Below are positions 35,636-46,891 of a DNA stretch of 64,000 bases, piece after piece. The DNA is from Candidatus Gastranaerophilales bacterium (GTDB lineage Bacteria; Cyanobacteriota; Vampirovibrionia; Gastranaerophilales; Gastranaerophilaceae), in NCBI GenBank assembly GCA_944324485.1, contig CALUWM010000001.1, positions 1-64,000 of the forward strand, written 5' to 3'. Position numbers and translations under genes: made by a program. The notes under the pieces are model-generated. The model ran no database searches and had not been told where the DNA came from. It was given only the letters and a program-made list of their open reading frames with translations. How positions within the stretch are numbered: position 1 is the first letter of the stretch; every line of letters begins with the position of its first letter.

Positions 35636-37582
35636 TCAGAATCCAAAGTAACTTAACTGAGAAGACTGTTCTTTTAATTCATCCCTTCTAAATGTATACA
35701 TCATTGTGGTGTCCCAAGGATTTACCAAAGTTATATATTGACCATTTACATCTAGAACACTCCAAGCATGTCCAAGACTATTCGCCATTACAACATCTCT
35801 TCCGGAACTATCTGTGGCTATAATTTTTGAATTCTCATCTTCAGGAATAAAAGATAAAATTGCAACACCGTAATCAGGATATTGTTCTATATAATTAATT
35901 GCATTATCAAAATTACCCATATAATCATATAAATCTTGATTTACACTTTGTGGTTCTTTTCCTGTCAAAGCTAGAGTAAATTTTTCAAAAGTACCACCAT
36001 ATAAAGGATCATAGCTTTTTCCTTCAGATTGCATTGATTCTTGCTTATCTTTTTCAATTTCAGTTAAGTACTTCTCAAAAGCAAGCTCCATTAAAATAAC
36101 GTCATCATCACCATAAGAATACCTTGCATTATTTTTTGCTCTTTCAAGCTCTTCATTTGTAACTTTATATTTTTTACCACCTAATTTAACATTATAATCA
36201 TCCGAAAACCAAACCTTGCTAATTGCTTTTTCGATAACTTTTCTGCCTTCTTTTGAAGTTGAAAAAGCACACAAAGCAGATAATAACCAACAATCTCCGT
36301 TAGTACCTTGACGGAAAGGTTCATCTATTTTTTCATTTATTGAAACATCTTCATCTTTAGCTAATCTATCTTCGCCTGAAATAACTTTACCTTTTTCATT
36401 ATAAATTACAACAGAACCGTCATTATACCTTTTTTCCAAACCCTCACGAGTAAATCTAAATTCTGCAAATTCACTGGAATCTATTACTCGAAATAATGGA
36501 GAATCTTTTCTGTTTTCATTCATATATTTATACAAATCGCCAGCTTTAATATAGCCTTCACTATCAATTTTTATAGAGACATCTTGTCCATTAATATTTT
36601 CTGTTACAATCAAATTTCCTTCTTCATCAAGTGTCATAGAGCCATCATTAATGTAACCAAAATCTCCGCAAGCTACACAATCTGCAACCTCTATACTCAA
36701 ATCAGTTTGGTATATATAATCAACAGGTAAATTAACAAAACCACTTATTTTATCGTTCTCATCATAATAGATAATAGTATCTGCAACAGAATCGCCATTT
36801 CTATCTATTTGGCTTTCAGTTAAAACACCTCTTTCATCATAATTGTATATGGTAACAGAAGTAGTTGTTTGGCCGTTTTCATCAGTTCTTGTCTCTCTCC
36901 TTGCTAAAGGATAAGAGCTATCTTCAAAATATTTTTGCTCAACTGAATATGTAATTCCATCCAATTTTACAAACATAGAAGTAAAATTACCATTTTTATC
37001 CGTCTGAATACCATAATCACTCTCAGGTAAAGACAAATACGCAGCATATTCTGCAAATTCTACATTTGCAACATCTGTTGTAAATCGTTCTAAATCATCA
37101 ACTGAATTTCCATAATTTCCATCACAACCATAAGTACCGGGTGAATAATTGAAAAACTGCAAAACATCAAGAGTTTTTAGATAATTTTCTTCATCTCCTT
37201 TACTTTTATAGTGATTAAAAATCATCGCTAAAAATTCATACTTATTATTTTTATCAATCAATATATCATTTAATCTGCTGAATTGTTCATAATAAACAGG
37301 TCCAACTGTTGAAGCATAACCGGCTATATCCGGTCTTTCCCCAGGATAATAATATTTCAAAGTTTCTTCAAAATCCTTGGTTGTTAAAAATGAATTTATA
37401 TCTCTTTCTTTTTGTGTTGATGCACTTTGCATTTCAGTACTATACTTAAAAGGTGCATAAACCGGTATTTCAGAACCAAAAACTTCTATAAGTTCTTCAT
37501 TCTTACCTTGTGTTACCTTATTGCTTCCAGATGTAACTTTACCATTCCTAAATAAATTGTCTATATTTGCATCATAAGACAT
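35636..37582 (-). CDS. Calpain-family (C2) cysteine protease-like protein
   Basis: 648 residues. The C-terminal domain has the complete calpain triad: Cys431 in QGTNGDCWLLSAL, His605 in SLGHAWSVLDV, and Asn621 in LVNPWD. The Q-G-x-x-G-D-C-W-L-L box is diagnostic of C2 peptidases. The N-terminal 400 residues are unrecognised but contain a D-x-N-x-D-x-x-x-D loop (IDRNGDSVADT, about 257-267) of thrombospondin/dockerin type that could bind calcium, and DENG/DKNG-type turns. No signal peptide. It is same-strand with, and next to, the EF-hand/C39-like gene, so the two may share a calcium-dependent role. Substrate unknown. Confidence 0.85.
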   Translation of the reverse strand: MSYDANIDNLFRNGKVTSGSNKVTQGKNEELIEVFGSEIPVYAPFKYSTEMQSASTQKERDINSFLTTKDFEETLKYYYPGERPDIAGYASTVGPVYYEQFSRLNDILIDKNNKYEFLAMIFNHYKSKGDEENYLKTLDVLQFFNYSPGTYGCDGNYGNSVDDLERFTTDVANVEFAEYAAYLSLPESDYGIQTDKNGNFTSMFVKLDGITYSVEQKYFEDSSYPLARRETRTDENGQTTTSVTIYNYDERGVLTESQIDRNGDSVADTIIYYDENDKISGFVNLPVDYIYQTDLSIEVADCVACGDFGYINDGSMTLDEEGNLIVTENINGQDVSIKIDSEGYIKAGDLYKYMNENRKDSPLFRVIDSSEFAEFRFTREGLEKRYNDGSVVIYNEKGKVISGEDRLAKDEDVSINEKIDEPFRQGTNGDCWLLSALCAFSTSKEGRKVIEKAISKVWFSDDYNVKLGGKKYKVTNEELERAKNNARYSYGDDDVILMELAFEKYLTEIEKDKQESMQSEGKSYDPLYGGTFEKFTLALTGKEPQSVNQDLYDYMGNFDNAINYIEQYPDYGVAILSFIPEDENSKIIATDSSGRDVVMANSLGHAWSVLDVNGQYITLVNPWDTTMMYTFRRDELKEQSSQLSYFGF

Positions 37583-39065: not shown

Positions 39066-41423
39066 TTATATAAATAAATTAGAATTTGATTTTTCAGATT
39101 CTTGAATATATTTTGCAACGCCACCTATTTCAACTCCGTCAATCAATTCTTCTTCCTTTATACCCATTACATCCATAGACATATTACAAGCAATAAATTT
39201 TACTCCGCTTTTTTTGGCTTCGAACATTAATTCTCTTAAAGTTGAAACTTTTTTCTTTTTCATAACATACTTCATCATCATTGAACCCATACCAAGCATA
39301 TTCATTTTTGACAATGATAATTTATCTATTCCTTTTGGCATCATATAAGAAAATAGTGTATCTATAAAACCTTTTTTAACTTTAACATCTGCTTTTCTTA
39401 AAATATTCAATCCCCAAAAAGTAAAAAACATTGTAACATCTTTACCAAGTGCCTTTGCACCATTTGCAATAATAAAAGAGGCAAGAGCTTTATCTAAATC
39501 ACTTGAAAATACTACTATGGTTTGAGCATTTGTATTTTCTTTCTTTGCATCTTTTTTACTACCTTTTCTAATTGTAGCAACAATAGTTTTATCATTTACC
39601 ACTAAATTTAAAAGACTATTTCCGGTGGACTCGCACCAAGAAACAACATCTGATTTAAAGCCTCTATCAGTTGCAGAAATTTCAAAGACATCTCCATCTT
39701 TTGCATCTTTTAAATTTTCAGACAATTTCATTACAGGCCCCGGACATTGTAAACCTATTGCATCGATTTTAACAGAATTATTATTATCTGTAATTTGATT
39801 TGCAAAAACAGGCACTTTTTTATCAGCTTCTCTCGTTAATTCTCTATATAACTCAAATCCGCCCATAAGCGAATATACATTATTAAAACCGCTTTGTATT
39901 AAAATTCTTGAAGCCAAGTAACTTGTGTAACCTGTATTACAGAATAATATTACTTTTTTATTTTTTGGAATTTCATCCAATCTGTCTCTTATTTCATTTA
40001 TTGGTATATTTATTGCATTTTTTATAGTTTTTATTTTAAAAGAAATCTCCGGTCGAACATCTATAACTAAAGAATCTTCCAAATCTTCAATAAAAGCAGG
40101 TTTAATAAAACCCTTTAAAATATTGTCTGCGTTCATTCCAAGTAAATTAACAGCATCTTTTGCTGATGAATATGGCGGAGCATAGCATAATTCAGCATCA
40201 ACCATATCTTGCACGGTGCCATTATTTCTCATTATAGCTGAAATAACGTCAATACGCTTTTCAACCCCATCTAAACCGACTGCCTGAGAGCCAAGTATTT
40301 TCCCTTTTTCATCAAATAATAATTTATATAAAGTTTGAGTCGAATTTGGGTAATACCCGGCATGACTTCTTGCAAAAACATAAGTCTTATAATAATTTAT
40401 ATTTTTACTTTTTAGCTGTTTTTCATTATTGCCAACACTTGCAATTGTATAATTAAATACCTTTATAACAGATGTACCTTGTGTTTTTTTATAAACAGAT
40501 TTCATCCCTGAAATATTATCAGCAATTATTCTTCCTTGTCTATTTGCAGGACCCGCCAAGGGGATTAAAACACTGTCTTCAAAATTAAAATCTTTAACTT
40601 CAATACTATCACCTGCAGCATAAACATCCTTCTTTGATGTCTCTAAAAATTCGTTTACTATAATTCCTCTATTAACTTCAATTCCTGCATTCCTAGCAAG
40701 GTCAATTTCAGGCCTTACTCCAATTGCCATTATAACAATATCAAATTCAAGCTCCTTATTTGAGTTTAGAACTATCTTATTATCCCTAAATTCTTTAACA
40801 CCATCTGACAATATTAAATTTATGCCATTTTCTAACATTTCATTTTGAGCAAAAACAGCAATTTCAGAATCCACCGGAGGCAATATTGAACTTCCAAGTT
40901 CCACAAGACTAACATCAAGACCCATTTCAGCCAAATTTTCAGCAACCTCAATTCCTATAAAGCCTCCACCAACTACTACCACTTTTTTAGAATTGTTAAT
41001 TTTTACATAATTTTTTATTTTGTCAGCATCTTTCAAAGTTCTCAAAGTAAAAACTTTTTCTTTGTCTAAGCCCTTAAACTCAGGCACAAAAGGTTTTGCA
41101 CCCATAGCCAGAACTAACTTATCATAATTTATTACATTTCCATCCTTTAAAATAACATTTTTAGACTCTGTGTTAATTTCAATCACTTCTGAATTTAATT
41201 TAACATCGATATTAAACCAATTTTTAAACTTCTCAGGTGTCGAAACCAATATTTTTTCTCTATCATTAATTACATCTGAAATATAATAAGGCAATCCACA
41301 ATTTGCAATCGAAATTTCTTCCGTTTTTTCTAAAATTAATATTTCAACTTTTTCATCTAATCTTCTTAATCTTGCTGCACAGCTTGCACCTGAAGCTCCT
41401 CCGCCTATTATAACTACTTTCAT
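39066..41423 (-). CDS. CoA-disulfide-reductase-like flavoprotein fused to rhodanese, TusA and DsrE domains
   Basis: 785 residues, four domains. (1) An FAD/NAD(P)H disulfide oxidoreductase (1-445) with VVIIGGGASGASCA, active Cys42 in IANCGLPYY (as in CoADR/Nox) and the second Rossmann VVVVGGGFIGIEVAE. (2) A rhodanese (about 455-540) with Cys495 in LFCNTGYTS. (3) TusA/SirA (about 553-625) with Cys560 in GLQCPGPVMK. (4) A DsrE/F/H-like domain (about 640-780) with Cys746 in FIACNMSMDVMGI. The four thiols form a plausible persulfide relay: reduction of CoA-persulfide or polysulfide with sulfur passed on. It is transcribed divergently from an ArsR regulator through a palindrome. Confidence 0.92.
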   Translation of the reverse strand: MKVVIIGGGASGASCAARLRRLDEKVEILILEKTEEISIANCGLPYYISDVINDREKILVSTPEKFKNWFNIDVKLNSEVIEINTESKNVILKDGNVINYDKLVLAMGAKPFVPEFKGLDKEKVFTLRTLKDADKIKNYVKINNSKKVVVVGGGFIGIEVAENLAEMGLDVSLVELGSSILPPVDSEIAVFAQNEMLENGINLILSDGVKEFRDNKIVLNSNKELEFDIVIMAIGVRPEIDLARNAGIEVNRGIIVNEFLETSKKDVYAAGDSIEVKDFNFEDSVLIPLAGPANRQGRIIADNISGMKSVYKKTQGTSVIKVFNYTIASVGNNEKQLKSKNINYYKTYVFARSHAGYYPNSTQTLYKLLFDEKGKILGSQAVGLDGVEKRIDVISAIMRNNGTVQDMVDAELCYAPPYSSAKDAVNLLGMNADNILKGFIKPAFIEDLEDSLVIDVRPEISFKIKTIKNAINIPINEIRDRLDEIPKNKKVILFCNTGYTSYLASRILIQSGFNNVYSLMGGFELYRELTREADKKVPVFANQITDNNNSVKIDAIGLQCPGPVMKLSENLKDAKDGDVFEISATDRGFKSDVVSWCESTGNSLLNLVVNDKTIVATIRKGSKKDAKKENTNAQTIVVFSSDLDKALASFIIANGAKALGKDVTMFFTFWGLNILRKADVKVKKGFIDTLFSYMMPKGIDKLSLSKMNMLGMGSMMMKYVMKKKKVSTLRELMFEAKKSGVKFIACNMSMDVMGIKEEELIDGVEIGGVAKYIQESEKSNSNLFI

Positions 41424-41437
41424 ATTTTACCTTTCAT

Positions 41438-41485
41438 TTGACAATATTAGAATATTATAATATTATGATATTCTAATATTGTCAA
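41438..41485. promoter_or_regulatory. Palindromic operator with two nested divergent promoters
   Basis: Two perfect 18-bp arms, TTGACAATATTAGAATAT (41438-41455) and its complement (41468-41485), with 12 bp between them. On the plus strand TTGACA is followed at exactly 17 bp by TATTAT (41461-41466). On the minus strand the mirror TTGACA is followed at 17 bp by TATTAT (41462-41457). So the arsR-like gene and the flavoprotein gene have near-consensus promoters superimposed inside one operator. A repressor bound here would block both. Confidence 0.9.
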
Positions 41486-41495
41486 GGAGATAAAA

Positions 41496-41774
41496 ATGAT
41501 ATCAGAAGAATATTGTGAAATATTTAAAGCACTCTCTCATCCAATACGCCTTAGTATAGTTTGCGGTCTTTTAAAAAAAGGCAAATGCAACGTAAACACA
41601 ATGTCTCAAAGGTTAAATTTATCCCAATCGCTTATCTCTCAACACGTAAACATTCTAAAAAAAGCAAAAATAATAAAAGGATACCGAGAAAAAAATATTA
41701 TCTGGTATAAAATCGAAAACGAATTAACAATAAAACTATTAAAAAACATTGATTTAGGATTGTGCAACAAATAA
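41496..41774 (+). CDS. ArsR-family repressor, probable persulfide or thiol sensor
   Basis: 92 residues. Winged helix-turn-helix: LSHPIRLSIVCGLLKKGKCNV, then the recognition helix NLSQSLISQHVNILKKA and the wing IKGYREKNIIWYKI. AAGGAGA just upstream of the ATG overlaps the operator edge. Cysteines are at 7, 23, 31 and 90; the 31/90 pair, one near helix 3 and one near the C terminus, could act like the two-Cys switch of SqrR/BigR-type persulfide sensors. Divergent placement from a rhodanese-TusA-DsrE flavoprotein supports a sulfur signal and not arsenic, but the ligand is inferred. Confidence 0.88.
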   Translation: MISEEYCEIFKALSHPIRLSIVCGLLKKGKCNVNTMSQRLNLSQSLISQHVNILKKAKIIKGYREKNIIWYKIENELTIKLLKNIDLGLCNK

Positions 41775-43454
41775 TCAAGAGTTTAATTTCTCAAATGCCT
41801 GTTTTGTAATTTCTTCATCAGTATAACCTTGAGGCATTTTTTCAGATATCTTAAATCCATATCCGTATTGGAAAGCAGACGGAAGTTGCGTACACAAATG
41901 CTCATATTCACCTAAAACAGAATTGATGCAATGGAGCGCACCCGGTTCTACCACAAAAAGCTCTCCTTCATTTAAAATTTTTGTTTCGGGTATACCATTT
42001 TTTAATATAGTAAAAGCCGCCTTCCCCGATGTAATCAAGTAAATTTCTGTTTGTTTTTTATCTTGCTCATCAGAGTGTTTATGCAAAACTTCACTTGTCC
42101 TTAAATCAGACATTTTTACAACCCCTTTTTTAGGTGTGTCTATAAGAGATACTCCAAAAAACGAAGGCAGTAAAACCCCTGAAGCAGGAGCCATAGAACT
42201 TGTGAGCCAACAAGATTTTTCAGAATTCCAAAAATTCGTTTTTAACTGCAGATTATATAAAGACATATCATCATCAATATATTTTAATCCGCTAAAATCA
42301 TAACCAGTAATATTTGAATTCAACCAAAAACTCAAAATTTTATCAATTTCTTCTTGGCTGAAATCTTTTTGCAACAATTCATTTCTTAAAATATCGGCAT
42401 TCGGGTAACTTTTCTTCCAGTAAACATAATCATTTTTATACTTTTTGTTCTTGTATAATATGTCTTTATCTCTCATTTTTTCTGCAAGTTCAATATCAAT
42501 CCCCTCAATAGGGCTTTTTATAACATATCTTGTGTCGATTTTTAATCTTCTGGCATTATCATAAAAAGGAGATAAAAATAAAATTTCTTCTTCACTAAAA
42601 CCTTGCTCTTTTAGTTTTTTTTCAAAAAAATCTTTACTATAATTATCTCTAAACTTTACAAATCCATCATTTTCAGACAACAAAACACCATTTTCGTATA
42701 ATCTTTGAACAAGAGATTTTATTTTTTCAATTTCAATTCTATCTTCTTGCGAAAGCATATCTCTTTTTGAAAACAAAGTATCAATTAATTTATTTTTTTC
42801 TTGCCACTTATTAATACCAAGCTTTTTTAAATATTCTTCATTTCTCATTCTAATGGGCAAAAATATATCACTAAAAAAAGCACCATTGTAATGATTTGAA
42901 TTAAAATATATAGCTTCTAAAAATTTATTTCTTATATTTTCATCTTCTGAACTTTTTGAATAAGGTTTGTACCAGTCATATTTATTTTTAACAAAAAATA
43001 CAGCAGGAAAACCTTTTTGCAAAATTACTTTTGCTTTTGTGCCTGCATCTAAACATAAACCAGAATCTTCACCAACATCTATTTTTTTTCCGTCTTTTAA
43101 AATTGTTGCCTTTGAACCTTTTGGAAAAATAACCTGAGTATCATATTCAAACTCTGAAATATTATTTAAATAATCAATAGCGTTTTTGCCATATATCAAC
43201 TTTAGCCCTGATTCCTCATCAAGCAAGTATGACCCATCTAAAGTATCGGGTTCTAAAACCCTTTCTTGTCCTTCTTTTGAAAAAGAGGTTGCTTTTGTAA
43301 TTTTATCAGCCTTTCCTTTAAAAAACAAAGGCTTATAATAAGGCATACTATGAATTTCAGCCTTTGATTCAACAGTTTTTGATGTCTTTTTCAAACTGCT
43401 TCCGGATGAAAAAGGAGAAAATGACATATTTTTATTTAAAGAAATTATACGCAT
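41775..43454 (-). CDS. Protein with C-terminal cupin domain and N-terminal F-x-G motif
   Basis: 559 residues. The leader ends in LFFKG (43-47). The middle 350 residues are helical and unrecognised, including FLSPFYDNARRL and related segments. The C-terminal cupin (about 445-540) has VLHKHSDEQ, the E in TEIYLITSGKAAFTI, GELFVVEPGALH and a second conserved His, the metal-binding cupin pattern. There is no signal peptide. It lies 40 bp downstream of the phosphonate genes on the same strand, and its stop directly abuts the end of the arsR-like gene (convergent). It may be a sugar or phosphonate-related isomerase or binding protein; not shown. Confidence 0.65.
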   Translation of the reverse strand: MRIISLNKNMSFSPFSSGSSLKKTSKTVESKAEIHSMPYYKPLFFKGKADKITKATSFSKEGQERVLEPDTLDGSYLLDEESGLKLIYGKNAIDYLNNISEFEYDTQVIFPKGSKATILKDGKKIDVGEDSGLCLDAGTKAKVILQKGFPAVFFVKNKYDWYKPYSKSSEDENIRNKFLEAIYFNSNHYNGAFFSDIFLPIRMRNEEYLKKLGINKWQEKNKLIDTLFSKRDMLSQEDRIEIEKIKSLVQRLYENGVLLSENDGFVKFRDNYSKDFFEKKLKEQGFSEEEILFLSPFYDNARRLKIDTRYVIKSPIEGIDIELAEKMRDKDILYKNKKYKNDYVYWKKSYPNADILRNELLQKDFSQEEIDKILSFWLNSNITGYDFSGLKYIDDDMSLYNLQLKTNFWNSEKSCWLTSSMAPASGVLLPSFFGVSLIDTPKKGVVKMSDLRTSEVLHKHSDEQDKKQTEIYLITSGKAAFTILKNGIPETKILNEGELFVVEPGALHCINSVLGEYEHLCTQLPSAFQYGYGFKISEKMPQGYTDEEITKQAFEKLNS

Positions 43455-43494: not shown

Positions 43495-44484
43495 CTAAAA
43501 CTTTTCTATTATTAATTTTCTTGGATTGTTTTTCATTCTTTCAGGATCAATATAATCTATTTCAAAATCTTTTTGTTCTATATCAATTTGTTTAAATAAA
43601 TTGGAAAAATACTCAAAGGCATCTGAAATACCAATCAAAGAATATATTTCTTCCATTCTTTCTTTAACAAAATCAACACCCCTTGAATCATTCAAGGTTT
43701 CTGGGTCAATTTTTTTATTATATTCCATTAATCTCGCAATATTCAATGCAACAGCATGTCCGTGAGGCAAACCGTATTTTATTGTTATGTTATAAGACAT
43801 TGCATGAGCTAATGTAGTTCTTGAAATATTTATAGCACGACCTGCTAAATTTGATGCCAGCATCATATTTTTAGCACACTCTTCATCATTAGAATTAACA
43901 TATTTGATTAAATTATCTCTACAAAGCTCGATTGCCATATAAGCATATTTTCTGCTTTCTTTAGTTGATTTTGTTGCAAAATAAGATTCAATAGCTTGAC
44001 AATATGTATCAAGTGCAGTGGTTGCTTTTAAATATTTCGGATTGTTTTTAAGAAATTGACTATCTAATATTACAATATCAGGCAAAATTGATGAATCATC
44101 CAATGATTTTTTTATCTTGTTTTCATAATAAACTGCAAACTGAGTAGCCTCAGAACCTGTGCCTGCAGTCGTAGGAACAGCAACAAATCTTAATTTAAGA
44201 TTGTTTTCGTATTTAAAAATTTTTGCAAAATCAATAACACTCCCGCCACCTATTGCAATAATTATGTCAAAATCAAATTTATTATTAAAAAACGTAGTCG
44301 CCCTTTTGACATCTTCAATTTTAGGATTAGACGTAAAATCATTATAATAAAAAGGAAATTTAAGATATCTTTCAACAATCGGTTTAATTTTTTCAAAAGA
44401 TTTTTTTCCACAAAAAACTAAAGGTTTATTAAAATTTATCTTTGATAATTCTTTAATTGCACCATTATATACATTATTATTCAT
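43495..44484 (-). CDS. Iron-type alcohol dehydrogenase, probable phosphonoacetaldehyde reductase
   Basis: 329 residues. Fe-ADH fold: nucleotide site GGGSVIDFAK, VPTTAGTGSEAT, then metal-site residues Asp159, His227 and His241 (HAMSYN ... GLPHGHAV). The second usual ligand, four residues after Asp159, is Gln163 and not His (DTYCQAIESY); I recall a similar C-Q-A-I-E-S motif in phosphonoacetaldehyde reductases, but that should be checked. The gene overlaps ppd by 8 nt. With the decarboxylase and PEP mutase it would reduce phosphonoacetaldehyde to 2-hydroxyethylphosphonate. The assignment rests on context as well as fold. Confidence 0.82.
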   Translation of the reverse strand: MNNNVYNGAIKELSKINFNKPLVFCGKKSFEKIKPIVERYLKFPFYYNDFTSNPKIEDVKRATTFFNNKFDFDIIIAIGGGSVIDFAKIFKYENNLKLRFVAVPTTAGTGSEATQFAVYYENKIKKSLDDSSILPDIVILDSQFLKNNPKYLKATTALDTYCQAIESYFATKSTKESRKYAYMAIELCRDNLIKYVNSNDEECAKNMMLASNLAGRAINISRTTLAHAMSYNITIKYGLPHGHAVALNIARLMEYNKKIDPETLNDSRGVDFVKERMEEIYSLIGISDAFEYFSNLFKQIDIEQKDFEIDYIDPERMKNNPRKLIIEKF

Positions 44485-45571
44485 TTAATTTCTCCATAAA
44501 GGCAATTTTATTGCTAACAGGCGTATTTTTAGGACGTGGAAGATCCGCCCCACTATCAGGTTTTATCTTAATTTCCAAAAAAGAAAGCTCATTATTATCT
44601 ATAAATTCAGGTAAAACTCTTTCAAGTTCCAACAGTGTTTTAACACTATATGTTTTTTTATAACCTGCTCCTTTAAATATTTCACAAAAATCCATATTTC
44701 TTGCAGCCGTAGGCTGAGAACCGACAGAATTATGAACACAATTATTCAATAGAATATGTTTTAAATTTTTTGGCGACTTTTCTGCTATTACAGCAATAGA
44801 GCCCATATGCATCAAAAGTGCTCCATCTCCGTCAAGACAAAATATTCTTTTATCTTTTTTATTTAATGCTATCAAAAGAGCAATCGAGCTCATATGTCCC
44901 ATTGACCCTACTGTTAAAAAATTTCTGGAATTATCTTTTGAATTTTTATATAGTTCCCTTGAAATATAACCTGTGGTTGAAACAAAAAAAGAATCACAAG
45001 GCGCTAGTTTTAATATTGAATTAATCGCAATTTCTCTTGTTAAATCGTAATCTTGGAAAATATCTTCATTAGCAAATTCTTTTTCAAACGTATTTTTTCT
45101 AACAACAAATGCAAAAGATTTTTTTGTTTTCTTCATATACTCTTTTGCATTTATAATCTGGTTTTTAACTTCAAATATATCATTTGATAGTATTTCATTT
45201 TTTAAGTCTATACAATTTAAAATATCTTTTGTTAAAAGACCTTGTTTAAAATGTTGTGGCTCATCCTTTATATCAGGCTCACCTCGCCAACCGATTATAA
45301 ATAATAGTGGAATTTCATATATATCCACCAAAGATAAAATTGGATTAATTGCATTTCCAATTCCGGAATTTTGCATATAAACAACAGGGATTTTTCCTGT
45401 TGAAAGATGATATCCACATCCCATAGCAACAGCATTTCCTTCATTGGCAGCTATAATATTTTCTTCATTTGAAATTTCATTGCAGAAAGATTTTAAAAGA
45501 CTGTCAGGAACTCCAAAAAAAGCTTCAAAATCTTGCTCCTTTAAGACATTAACAAAATCTTTTGCAAACAT
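44477..45571 (-). CDS. ppd: Phosphonopyruvate decarboxylase
   Basis: 364 residues, the normal length for the two-domain ThDP enzyme. N-terminal pyrimidine-binding domain with FFGVPDSLLKSFCNE and ANEGNAVAMGCGYH, containing the conserved Glu. C-terminal pyrophosphate domain with the G-D-G ... N-N ThDP motif (LDGDGALLMHMG ... HILLNN). It converts phosphonopyruvate to phosphonoacetaldehyde, pulling the unfavourable PEP mutase reaction forward. It starts 1 bp from the pepM stop and overlaps the alcohol dehydrogenase, so the three are one translational unit. Confidence 0.95.
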   Translation of the reverse strand: MFAKDFVNVLKEQDFEAFFGVPDSLLKSFCNEISNEENIIAANEGNAVAMGCGYHLSTGKIPVVYMQNSGIGNAINPILSLVDIYEIPLLFIIGWRGEPDIKDEPQHFKQGLLTKDILNCIDLKNEILSNDIFEVKNQIINAKEYMKKTKKSFAFVVRKNTFEKEFANEDIFQDYDLTREIAINSILKLAPCDSFFVSTTGYISRELYKNSKDNSRNFLTVGSMGHMSSIALLIALNKKDKRIFCLDGDGALLMHMGSIAVIAEKSPKNLKHILLNNCVHNSVGSQPTAARNMDFCEIFKGAGYKKTYSVKTLLELERVLPEFIDNNELSFLEIKIKPDSGADLPRPKNTPVSNKIAFMEKLNE

Positions 45572-46891
45572 TTAACGACCTCCGGGAATTAAATTTAAAA
45601 TATCATTTATCTTCATGCAATATTCATCAGATGCCTCTTTGCATCTATGATTTTTTAAAATACTTTTTGCACTATTAACCATTGCAGGCCAAGCAGCTCT
45701 TAGAAGATGGTTTGCATATATCACAACTTTTATACCATTTTCAATCAATTCTTTTTCTGATACTTCAGAATATGAAGAAGGAACAACGATTAATGGTTTT
45801 TTATTTTCTAATTTATTATAAATTCTCGCAAATTCCCTTACTTCATCAAAAGTATTCTTTCTTGAATGTATCATAATACCGTCAGCTCCTGCTTCAAGAT
45901 ATATTTTTGCTCTATTTATAGCATCTTCTAAGCCTTTTTCTAAAATTAAACTTTCAATTCTTGCTATAATCATAAAATCGTCTGTAACTTGTGCTTGTTT
46001 CCCTGCCTTAATTTTAAGAGCAAAATCATCGGGGTTATCTTGCGTCTGTTCAACTTCAACACCAAACAAAGAATTTTTCTTCAAACCTATCTTATCCTCA
46101 ATTATTATTGCTGAAACACCAAGCCTTTCAAGAGTTTTCACAGTAAAGACAAAATGCTCGCAAGGTCCTCCGTTGTCTCCATCATAAATTATAGGTTTTG
46201 TTGTTACATCTAAAATATCATTTAAAGTTGACATCCTTGATGTTGTGTCTAAATAGCCGGTATCAGGCTTGCCTTGAGCAGCAGATTGAGTTAAAGACGA
46301 TAGCCAAATCCCATCAAATTCAAGCTTTTTACCTTGTTCCTCTATTGAAACATTTTCTACAATAAGCCCGCTTAAACCATTGTGCGCTTCAAGAATTGTA
46401 ACTATTTCCTTTGAATTTATTAAACGCTTCAATCTCCTTCCCCTAATCTCAGGAGTTGTGCCCACTTCTTTTAAAATTTTATTTAATTTAGTAGATGATA
46501 TCCCCTCTGTATAAGGTATATCAATAACTTTTCCACCCCATTGTTTCATAACTTCAATTATTCTTTGTCTGGTTTGAGCTTGAACGCCAGTTTTCCAATC
46601 ATCACCATGGAGAACATAATCGGGTTTAATTTTTAAAAGATTTGGAACATAATCAAGAGTTTCTTGTTCAATAACCCTATTTACCCCCTTAACATTCTCA
46701 ACAACTACTTTTCTTTGTTCGAATGTCATATAAGGAAGTCTTTTATAACTTGCAATCGCACTATCTGTCAAAAGTCCGATTATGATTTCACCGCCGCCAT
46801 TTTCATCTAAAATCTTTCTTGCTTCGTTGATTATATTCAAATGTCCAGGGTGAAGCAAATCTGCACTCATCCCTATATATATCTTCTTCAT
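45572..46891 (-). CDS. pepM: Fused cytidylyltransferase and phosphoenolpyruvate mutase
   Basis: 439 residues. N-terminal cytidylyltransferase (1-140) of the glycerol-3-phosphate/ethanolamine type: [14 protein letters not shown] with the H-x-G-H loop at His14/His17, and the ending TEGISSTKL, matching the R/I-S-S-T family signature. C-terminal PEP mutase (about 155-439) with the diagnostic [10 protein letters not shown] loop starting at Glu265 and IYDGDNGG. It makes phosphonopyruvate from PEP, while the N-terminal half would activate the final phosphonate with CTP (PntC-type). First gene of the pepM-ppd-adh operon. No aminotransferase is seen, which favours hydroxyethylphosphonate over aminoethylphosphonate. 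Confidence 0.95.

Follow-up and report, generated by a model that had tools for sequence, protein, structure and literature searches.

Probable superimposed opposed promoters and a candidate repeat-array operator between arsR and a sulfur-handling flavoprotein gene in a gut Melainabacterium

Comparative analysis of a 64,000-nucleotide stretch of DNA (hereafter, the window) from Candidatus Gastranaerophilales, a member of the gut Melainabacteria, identified a 48-bp element at 41438–41485 (TTGACAATATTAGAATATTATAATATTATGATATTCTAATATTGTCAA) that is likely an autorepressed, persulfide-induced bidirectional promoter. Here, a candidate operator would be fused with a mutually exclusive sigma70-type promoter driving arsR on one side and, on the other, a gene encoding a CoA-disulfide-reductase-like (CoADR) flavoprotein fused to rhodanese, TusA and DsrE domains, and one short element thus probably switches the regulator and the sulfur-handling enzyme together. 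The start codons of the two genes lie only 72 bp apart. On the forward strand, arsR (41496–41774, ATG at 41496) encodes a 92-aa ArsR-family regulator behind a Shine-Dalgarno sequence, AAGGAG, read at 41484–41489, while the reverse strand carries the gene of the 785-aa flavoprotein (39066–41423, ATG at 41423), with the Shine-Dalgarno sequence AAAGG read at 41434–41430.

The element is a near-perfect palindrome consisting of two abutting 24-bp arms that are complementary at 23 of 24 positions, T41456/G41467 being the only unpaired position, and the description of a perfect palindrome in the first-pass annotation is therefore off by one pair. In 60 dinucleotide shuffles of the 64 kb, the best palindrome per shuffle had 4–8 mismatches, as compared with the one observed, and a search of the rest of the window for a gapless 24+24 palindrome with at most six mismatches gave none. 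The palindrome arm was not found elsewhere in the 1.72-Mb genome, even when up to three mismatches were allowed, and a dispersed repeat or mobile element was rejected on that ground. The palindrome conceals a tandem array in which AATATT, a self-complementary hexamer, recurs at an 8-bp period. Since the units of this array are themselves symmetric and are flanked by the two −35 boxes, the palindrome is largely a by-product of the array. A read-through transcript of the region would fold into a 24-bp stem, and the palindrome could in principle act as RNA, in the form of a hairpin, an attenuator or a terminator. This reading is scarcely credible, as neither a terminator-like site nor a T-run is present at the palindrome, no Rfam family comes near its gathering score, and the arm differences among relatives are all one-sided, with no compensatory pair; on these grounds, it was rejected.

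Both promoters of the bidirectional element were found exactly where the first-pass annotation had placed TTGACA-N17-TATTAT on the two strands. The arsR promoter (41438–41466, forward strand) comprises a −35 box at 41438–41443 and, 17 bp downstream, a −10 box at 41461–41466, while the flavoprotein promoter (41457–41485, reverse strand) comprises a −35 box at 41485–41480 and, at the same spacing, a −10 box at 41462–41457. From the −10 positions, transcription is predicted to start near 41473 for arsR and near 41450 for the flavoprotein gene. The two −10 boxes share 41461–41462, namely two bases rather than the five or six initially proposed. When scored against a sigma70 consensus borrowed from other bacteria, both promoters matched at 11 of 12 positions, which ranks them above every other promoter-like site in the 6 kb scanned and makes them two of only six sites at that score in the entire 64-kb window. 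These two scores are not independent evidence, because a palindrome that holds one promoter automatically holds its mirror image; this, like the borrowing of the consensus, counts against our main explanation.

Evidence beyond symmetry came from orthologous loci, which were drawn from the family, from the class and from a pattern scan of one genome per species across 84,980 species. In all 35 ortholog rows with TTGAC (or TTGCC) before arsR, TATNNT was located 17 bp downstream. A looser test for TA...T among 26 unique sequences placed the hexamer at N17 in all 26 and at N16 or N18 in none. TA...T hexamers were also frequent at N14 and N25, an outcome of the repetition of the array that weakens this test as support for the bidirectional promoter. 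In the direction of the flavoprotein, N17-TATNNT is kept in 13/13 members of the window's clade, although the −35 box of one of them (L083) is degenerate. As the N17 spacing stays constant despite variation in the arms and in the length and phase of the array, it is very likely that the promoters are genuine rather than a misreading of AT-rich sequence. The core of the original proposal, divergent superimposed promoters common to ArsR and the flavoprotein, with polymerases excluding each other and ArsR covering both, is thus well supported by comparison, whereas its overlap size and perfect symmetry are not, and its single-dimer site probably is not either.

These comparisons also bear on the idea that the array is an operator in which only one direction is a true promoter, with a mirror that merely follows from symmetry and with transcription of the other gene coming from elsewhere. 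Leftward read-through into the flavoprotein gene from upstream genes is possible, and the symmetry would supply the mirror promoter at no cost. Against this idea, the arms differ in L067, L082/L057 and L083, yet N17-TATNNT is kept both ways, and in a genome that has no arsR at the locus (G046, discussed below) the final T was lost only from the −10 box facing the empty side. We consider transcription from a single direction quite improbable.

The proposed ArsR operator is the array itself (41443–41480, unstranded), which in the window contains five units starting at 41443, 41451, 41459, 41467 (as GATATT) and 41475; there are usually four units in the window's clade and mostly three in sister groups and promoters. 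Period-8 runs of at least three units were present at 32 of 39 loci, compared with 0.2 expected from shuffles, and the mean longest run across the 39 loci was 3.28 units at period 8, but only 1.05–1.49 at all other periods from 6 to 14. Arrays were also found at arsR-linked thioredoxin genes. At L014 and L016, arsR comes second in an operon headed by a thioredoxin gene and therefore lacks a separate array; the array was sought before that thioredoxin gene and was found there. L008–L010 carry an additional array at the promoter of a neighbouring thioredoxin gene. This tracking of arsR and linked thioredoxin genes supports the assignment of the array as a putative ArsR operator. Among the matches examined in the window's genome, only this array lies outside reading frames; the five other near-matches examined all lie within reading frames, making a local switch likelier and disfavouring a wider regulon.

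The array yields the pattern ATTN-N8-NAAT, which reads ATTA-GAATATTA-TAAT in the window and can be compared with the SqrR operator, ATTC-N8-GAAT as quoted in PMC9774250; the array of L017, ATTC-GAATATTG-GAAT, matches that pattern exactly. ArsR proteins bind inverted repeats as dimers, and as the palindrome has a symmetric centre, a single ArsR dimer might sit there on a classic operator of two half-sites, with the outer 8-bp repeats being irrelevant. RexT, for example, binds ATTCG-N15-CGAAT (PMC8960804). Occupation by one dimer in this manner is nevertheless unlikely, since the 48-bp forms carry an extra 8-bp unit between the arms, so that the centre differs among relatives, and three-unit sister promoters have no large palindrome. 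The binding element is probably not the site of one ArsR dimer over the palindrome, as initially suggested, but the array of five AATATT units, which leaves room for more than one dimer.

The superposition of the two promoters marks the window's ArsR clade alone (13 rows, support 100/98). In most members of this clade, the palindrome is 40 bp long, with TTGACAATATTAGAATATTATAATATTCTAATATTGTCAA as its perfect form, while the 48-bp palindrome is found at orthologous loci in the window, L057/L082 and L067; its extra 8 bp relative to the 40-bp form correspond to one unit. L083, which belongs to a different family within the order, carries a decayed five-unit version. The sister clade instead displays back-to-back promoters, with a separate array for each gene, 113–123 bp between start codons and a predicted arsR start site on or adjoining the ATG. 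In this clade arsR is apparently leaderless, as six bases separate TTGACA-N17-TATTCT from the ATG, which places the predicted start on the A of that codon (L013, L015, L018–L020, L085, L086, L091, L094 and L095). The pattern scan gave 32 matches. Those with an AATATT array all adjoin this flavoprotein and have ArsR on the other side in all cases except L054, the ArsR match of L064 being cut by the locus end; the remaining matches are unrelated, both in their surroundings and in their inner sequence. The palindrome pattern was absent from the 27 other searched genomes of the window's genus and present in other genera of the family, a patchy distribution that possibly reflects transfer between lineages. 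Together, these loci tentatively suggest a modular arrangement in which each 8-bp unit could serve as a repressor contact or as a −10 box, and in which gain or loss of a unit, between four and five, shifts the opposed promoters from −10 boxes that are separate (40 bp) to −10 boxes that are shared (48 bp), or back. If so, unit number would set, over evolution, both the competition between the two directions and the count of ArsR dimers loaded.

The exception in the scan belongs to genome G046 (L054/L076), in which a four-unit array still adjoins the flavoprotein gene, while the place of arsR is taken by a tRNA-like stretch and unrelated genes. No ArsR-family protein in this genome scored over the Pfam cut-off, which is at odds with our main explanation and would fit a DNA-binding protein other than ArsR as the user of the array. 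We assign the latter a slim chance, given that the arrays track arsR and the linked thioredoxin gene across differing neighbourhoods, and that G046 is one genome that may simply have lost arsR recently, the reading we favour. Its −10 box facing the empty side reads TATTTG, and the opposite −10 box is still TATTCT.

The arsR product is an ArsR-family winged helix, scoring over the cut-offs of Pfam HTH_5 and NF033788, and its best solved relative is BigR (2e-17, using a profile built from the clade together with its near relatives). It scored 57.2 bits against the 155 bits that the curated BigR equivalog (NF040642) demands, and is therefore SqrR/BigR-like rather than BigR itself. The ArsR alignment used shows no variation at C23, C31 or C90. 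Of these, C23 and C90 are in register with cysteines in BigR and HlyU and correspond to the C41/C107 pair of SqrR, while C31 is out of register and was set aside as the sensing cysteine; the ArsR of the sister clade has neither C23 nor C90. In SqrR, C41 and C107 form a tetrasulfide upon exposure to persulfide, and DNA binding is lost (PMC9995734); in HlyU, sulfur bridging of the cysteines likewise releases the DNA (PMC10509353). Judged from the alignment with the BigR/HlyU dithiol pair, persulfide is a reasonable candidate signal for the window's ArsR. A structure model from the single sequence (pLDDT 86 for the best of five, approximately 50 for the others) confirmed winged-helix secondary structure only, and PADLOC matches to Csa3/CasR and LmuA were fold-level or weak. 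Downstream, arsR and a convergent 559-aa gene end on adjoining bases (41774–41775, zero gap), and the latter has no Pfam or NCBIfam match.

In the flavoprotein, Pyr_redox_2, Pyr_redox_dim and Rhodanese all scored over cut-off, while the curated CoA-disulfide reductase equivalog TIGR03385 gave 461.9 bits, below its threshold of 578.8. The protein thus appears CoADR-like, with TusA and DsrE2 in addition, and its domains are of the sulfur-transfer and persulfide-reductase types. In L067, L039, L057 and L065, the flavoprotein is approximately 550 aa long, seemingly without the TusA and DsrE2 part. Elsewhere in the window, the reverse strand carries a phosphonate biosynthesis set at 43495–46891 (a PEP mutase fused to a cytidylyltransferase-like domain, a phosphonopyruvate decarboxylase and an iron-type alcohol dehydrogenase) and, at 35636–37582, the gene of a 648-aa protein in which we read a calpain-like GTNGDCWLLSAL motif; this protein has no NCBIfam match at 1e-10.

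Taken together, the following scheme can be proposed. RNA polymerase would seat on the element either way, rightward to transcribe arsR or leftward to transcribe the gene of the CoADR-rhodanese-TusA-DsrE flavoprotein, and because both −35 boxes are outermost, each polymerase would cover the opposite promoter. The greater part of each −10 box (TATT, with nT after it) comes from one AATATT unit. Reduced ArsR dimers, for which we propose a stoichiometry of three array units per dimer, would bind the array and block both promoters, such that ArsR represses itself as well as the enzyme. When reactive sulfur rises, C23 and C90 may become bridged by sulfur, as in SqrR/BigR/HlyU, whereupon ArsR would leave the DNA, both genes would fire and the induced flavoprotein would then clear the persulfide.

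The homologous loci provide a natural series, from back-to-back promoters with two arrays, through superimposed promoters on four and on five units, to one regulator-less locus, so that the effect of common −10 boxes and of repressor load on the coupling of two genes is directly testable. The array is also a candidate operator code for a sulfur-sensing ArsR group in gut Melainabacteria.

Overlapping bidirectional promoters are common in bacteria, as described by Warman, Grainger and colleagues (PMC10268837, PMC12825309), with acrA/acrR as an example, and according to a 2026 study (PMC12825309), nothing had been known until then of how such promoters are controlled. The economy that the first-pass annotation saw in this "unusually economical switch" is a trait of one ArsR clade. 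Warman et al. define these promoters by reciprocally overlapping opposed −10 elements and opposite-strand starts 7–25 bp apart. Here, the opposed −10 elements overlap reciprocally by 2 bp (41461–41462), and the starts predicted from the −10 positions (41450 and 41473) are 23 bp apart, within that range; the predicted starts of the 40-bp relatives are 31 bp apart and fall outside this definition. As in acrA/acrR, opposed promoters on common bases separate a repressor gene from its target, and the polymerases would compete, whereas the window's element differs in its two perfect −35 boxes, in the symmetry of the whole element and in a putative operator that is a repeat array supplying the −10 boxes. 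The bio operator of E. coli was considered as a further analogue, but a literature search on it gave nothing useful. With SqrR, BigR, HlyU and YgaV (PMC9995734, PMC10509353, PMC9774250), the window's ArsR has in common the fold, a cysteine pair in register and a sulfur-metabolism target, and the SqrR site in its quoted form spans the same dimensions as three array units; it differs from them in a one-residue insertion between the cysteines, the additional invariant C31 and the array operator, and from BigR also in its score below the curated cut-off. The enzyme resembles CoA-disulfide reductase and NADH-dependent persulfide reductase (Npsr) (PMC7969121) in its flavoprotein and rhodanese domains and, as we read the sequence, in a single active-site cysteine motif, NCGLPYY, but adds TusA and DsrE2 to them. 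Overlapping bidirectional promoters and SqrR-type autoregulation are thus already known. A symmetric two-way promoter merged with an operator array of modular 8-bp units was not encountered in the literature consulted, and appears to be a new variant.
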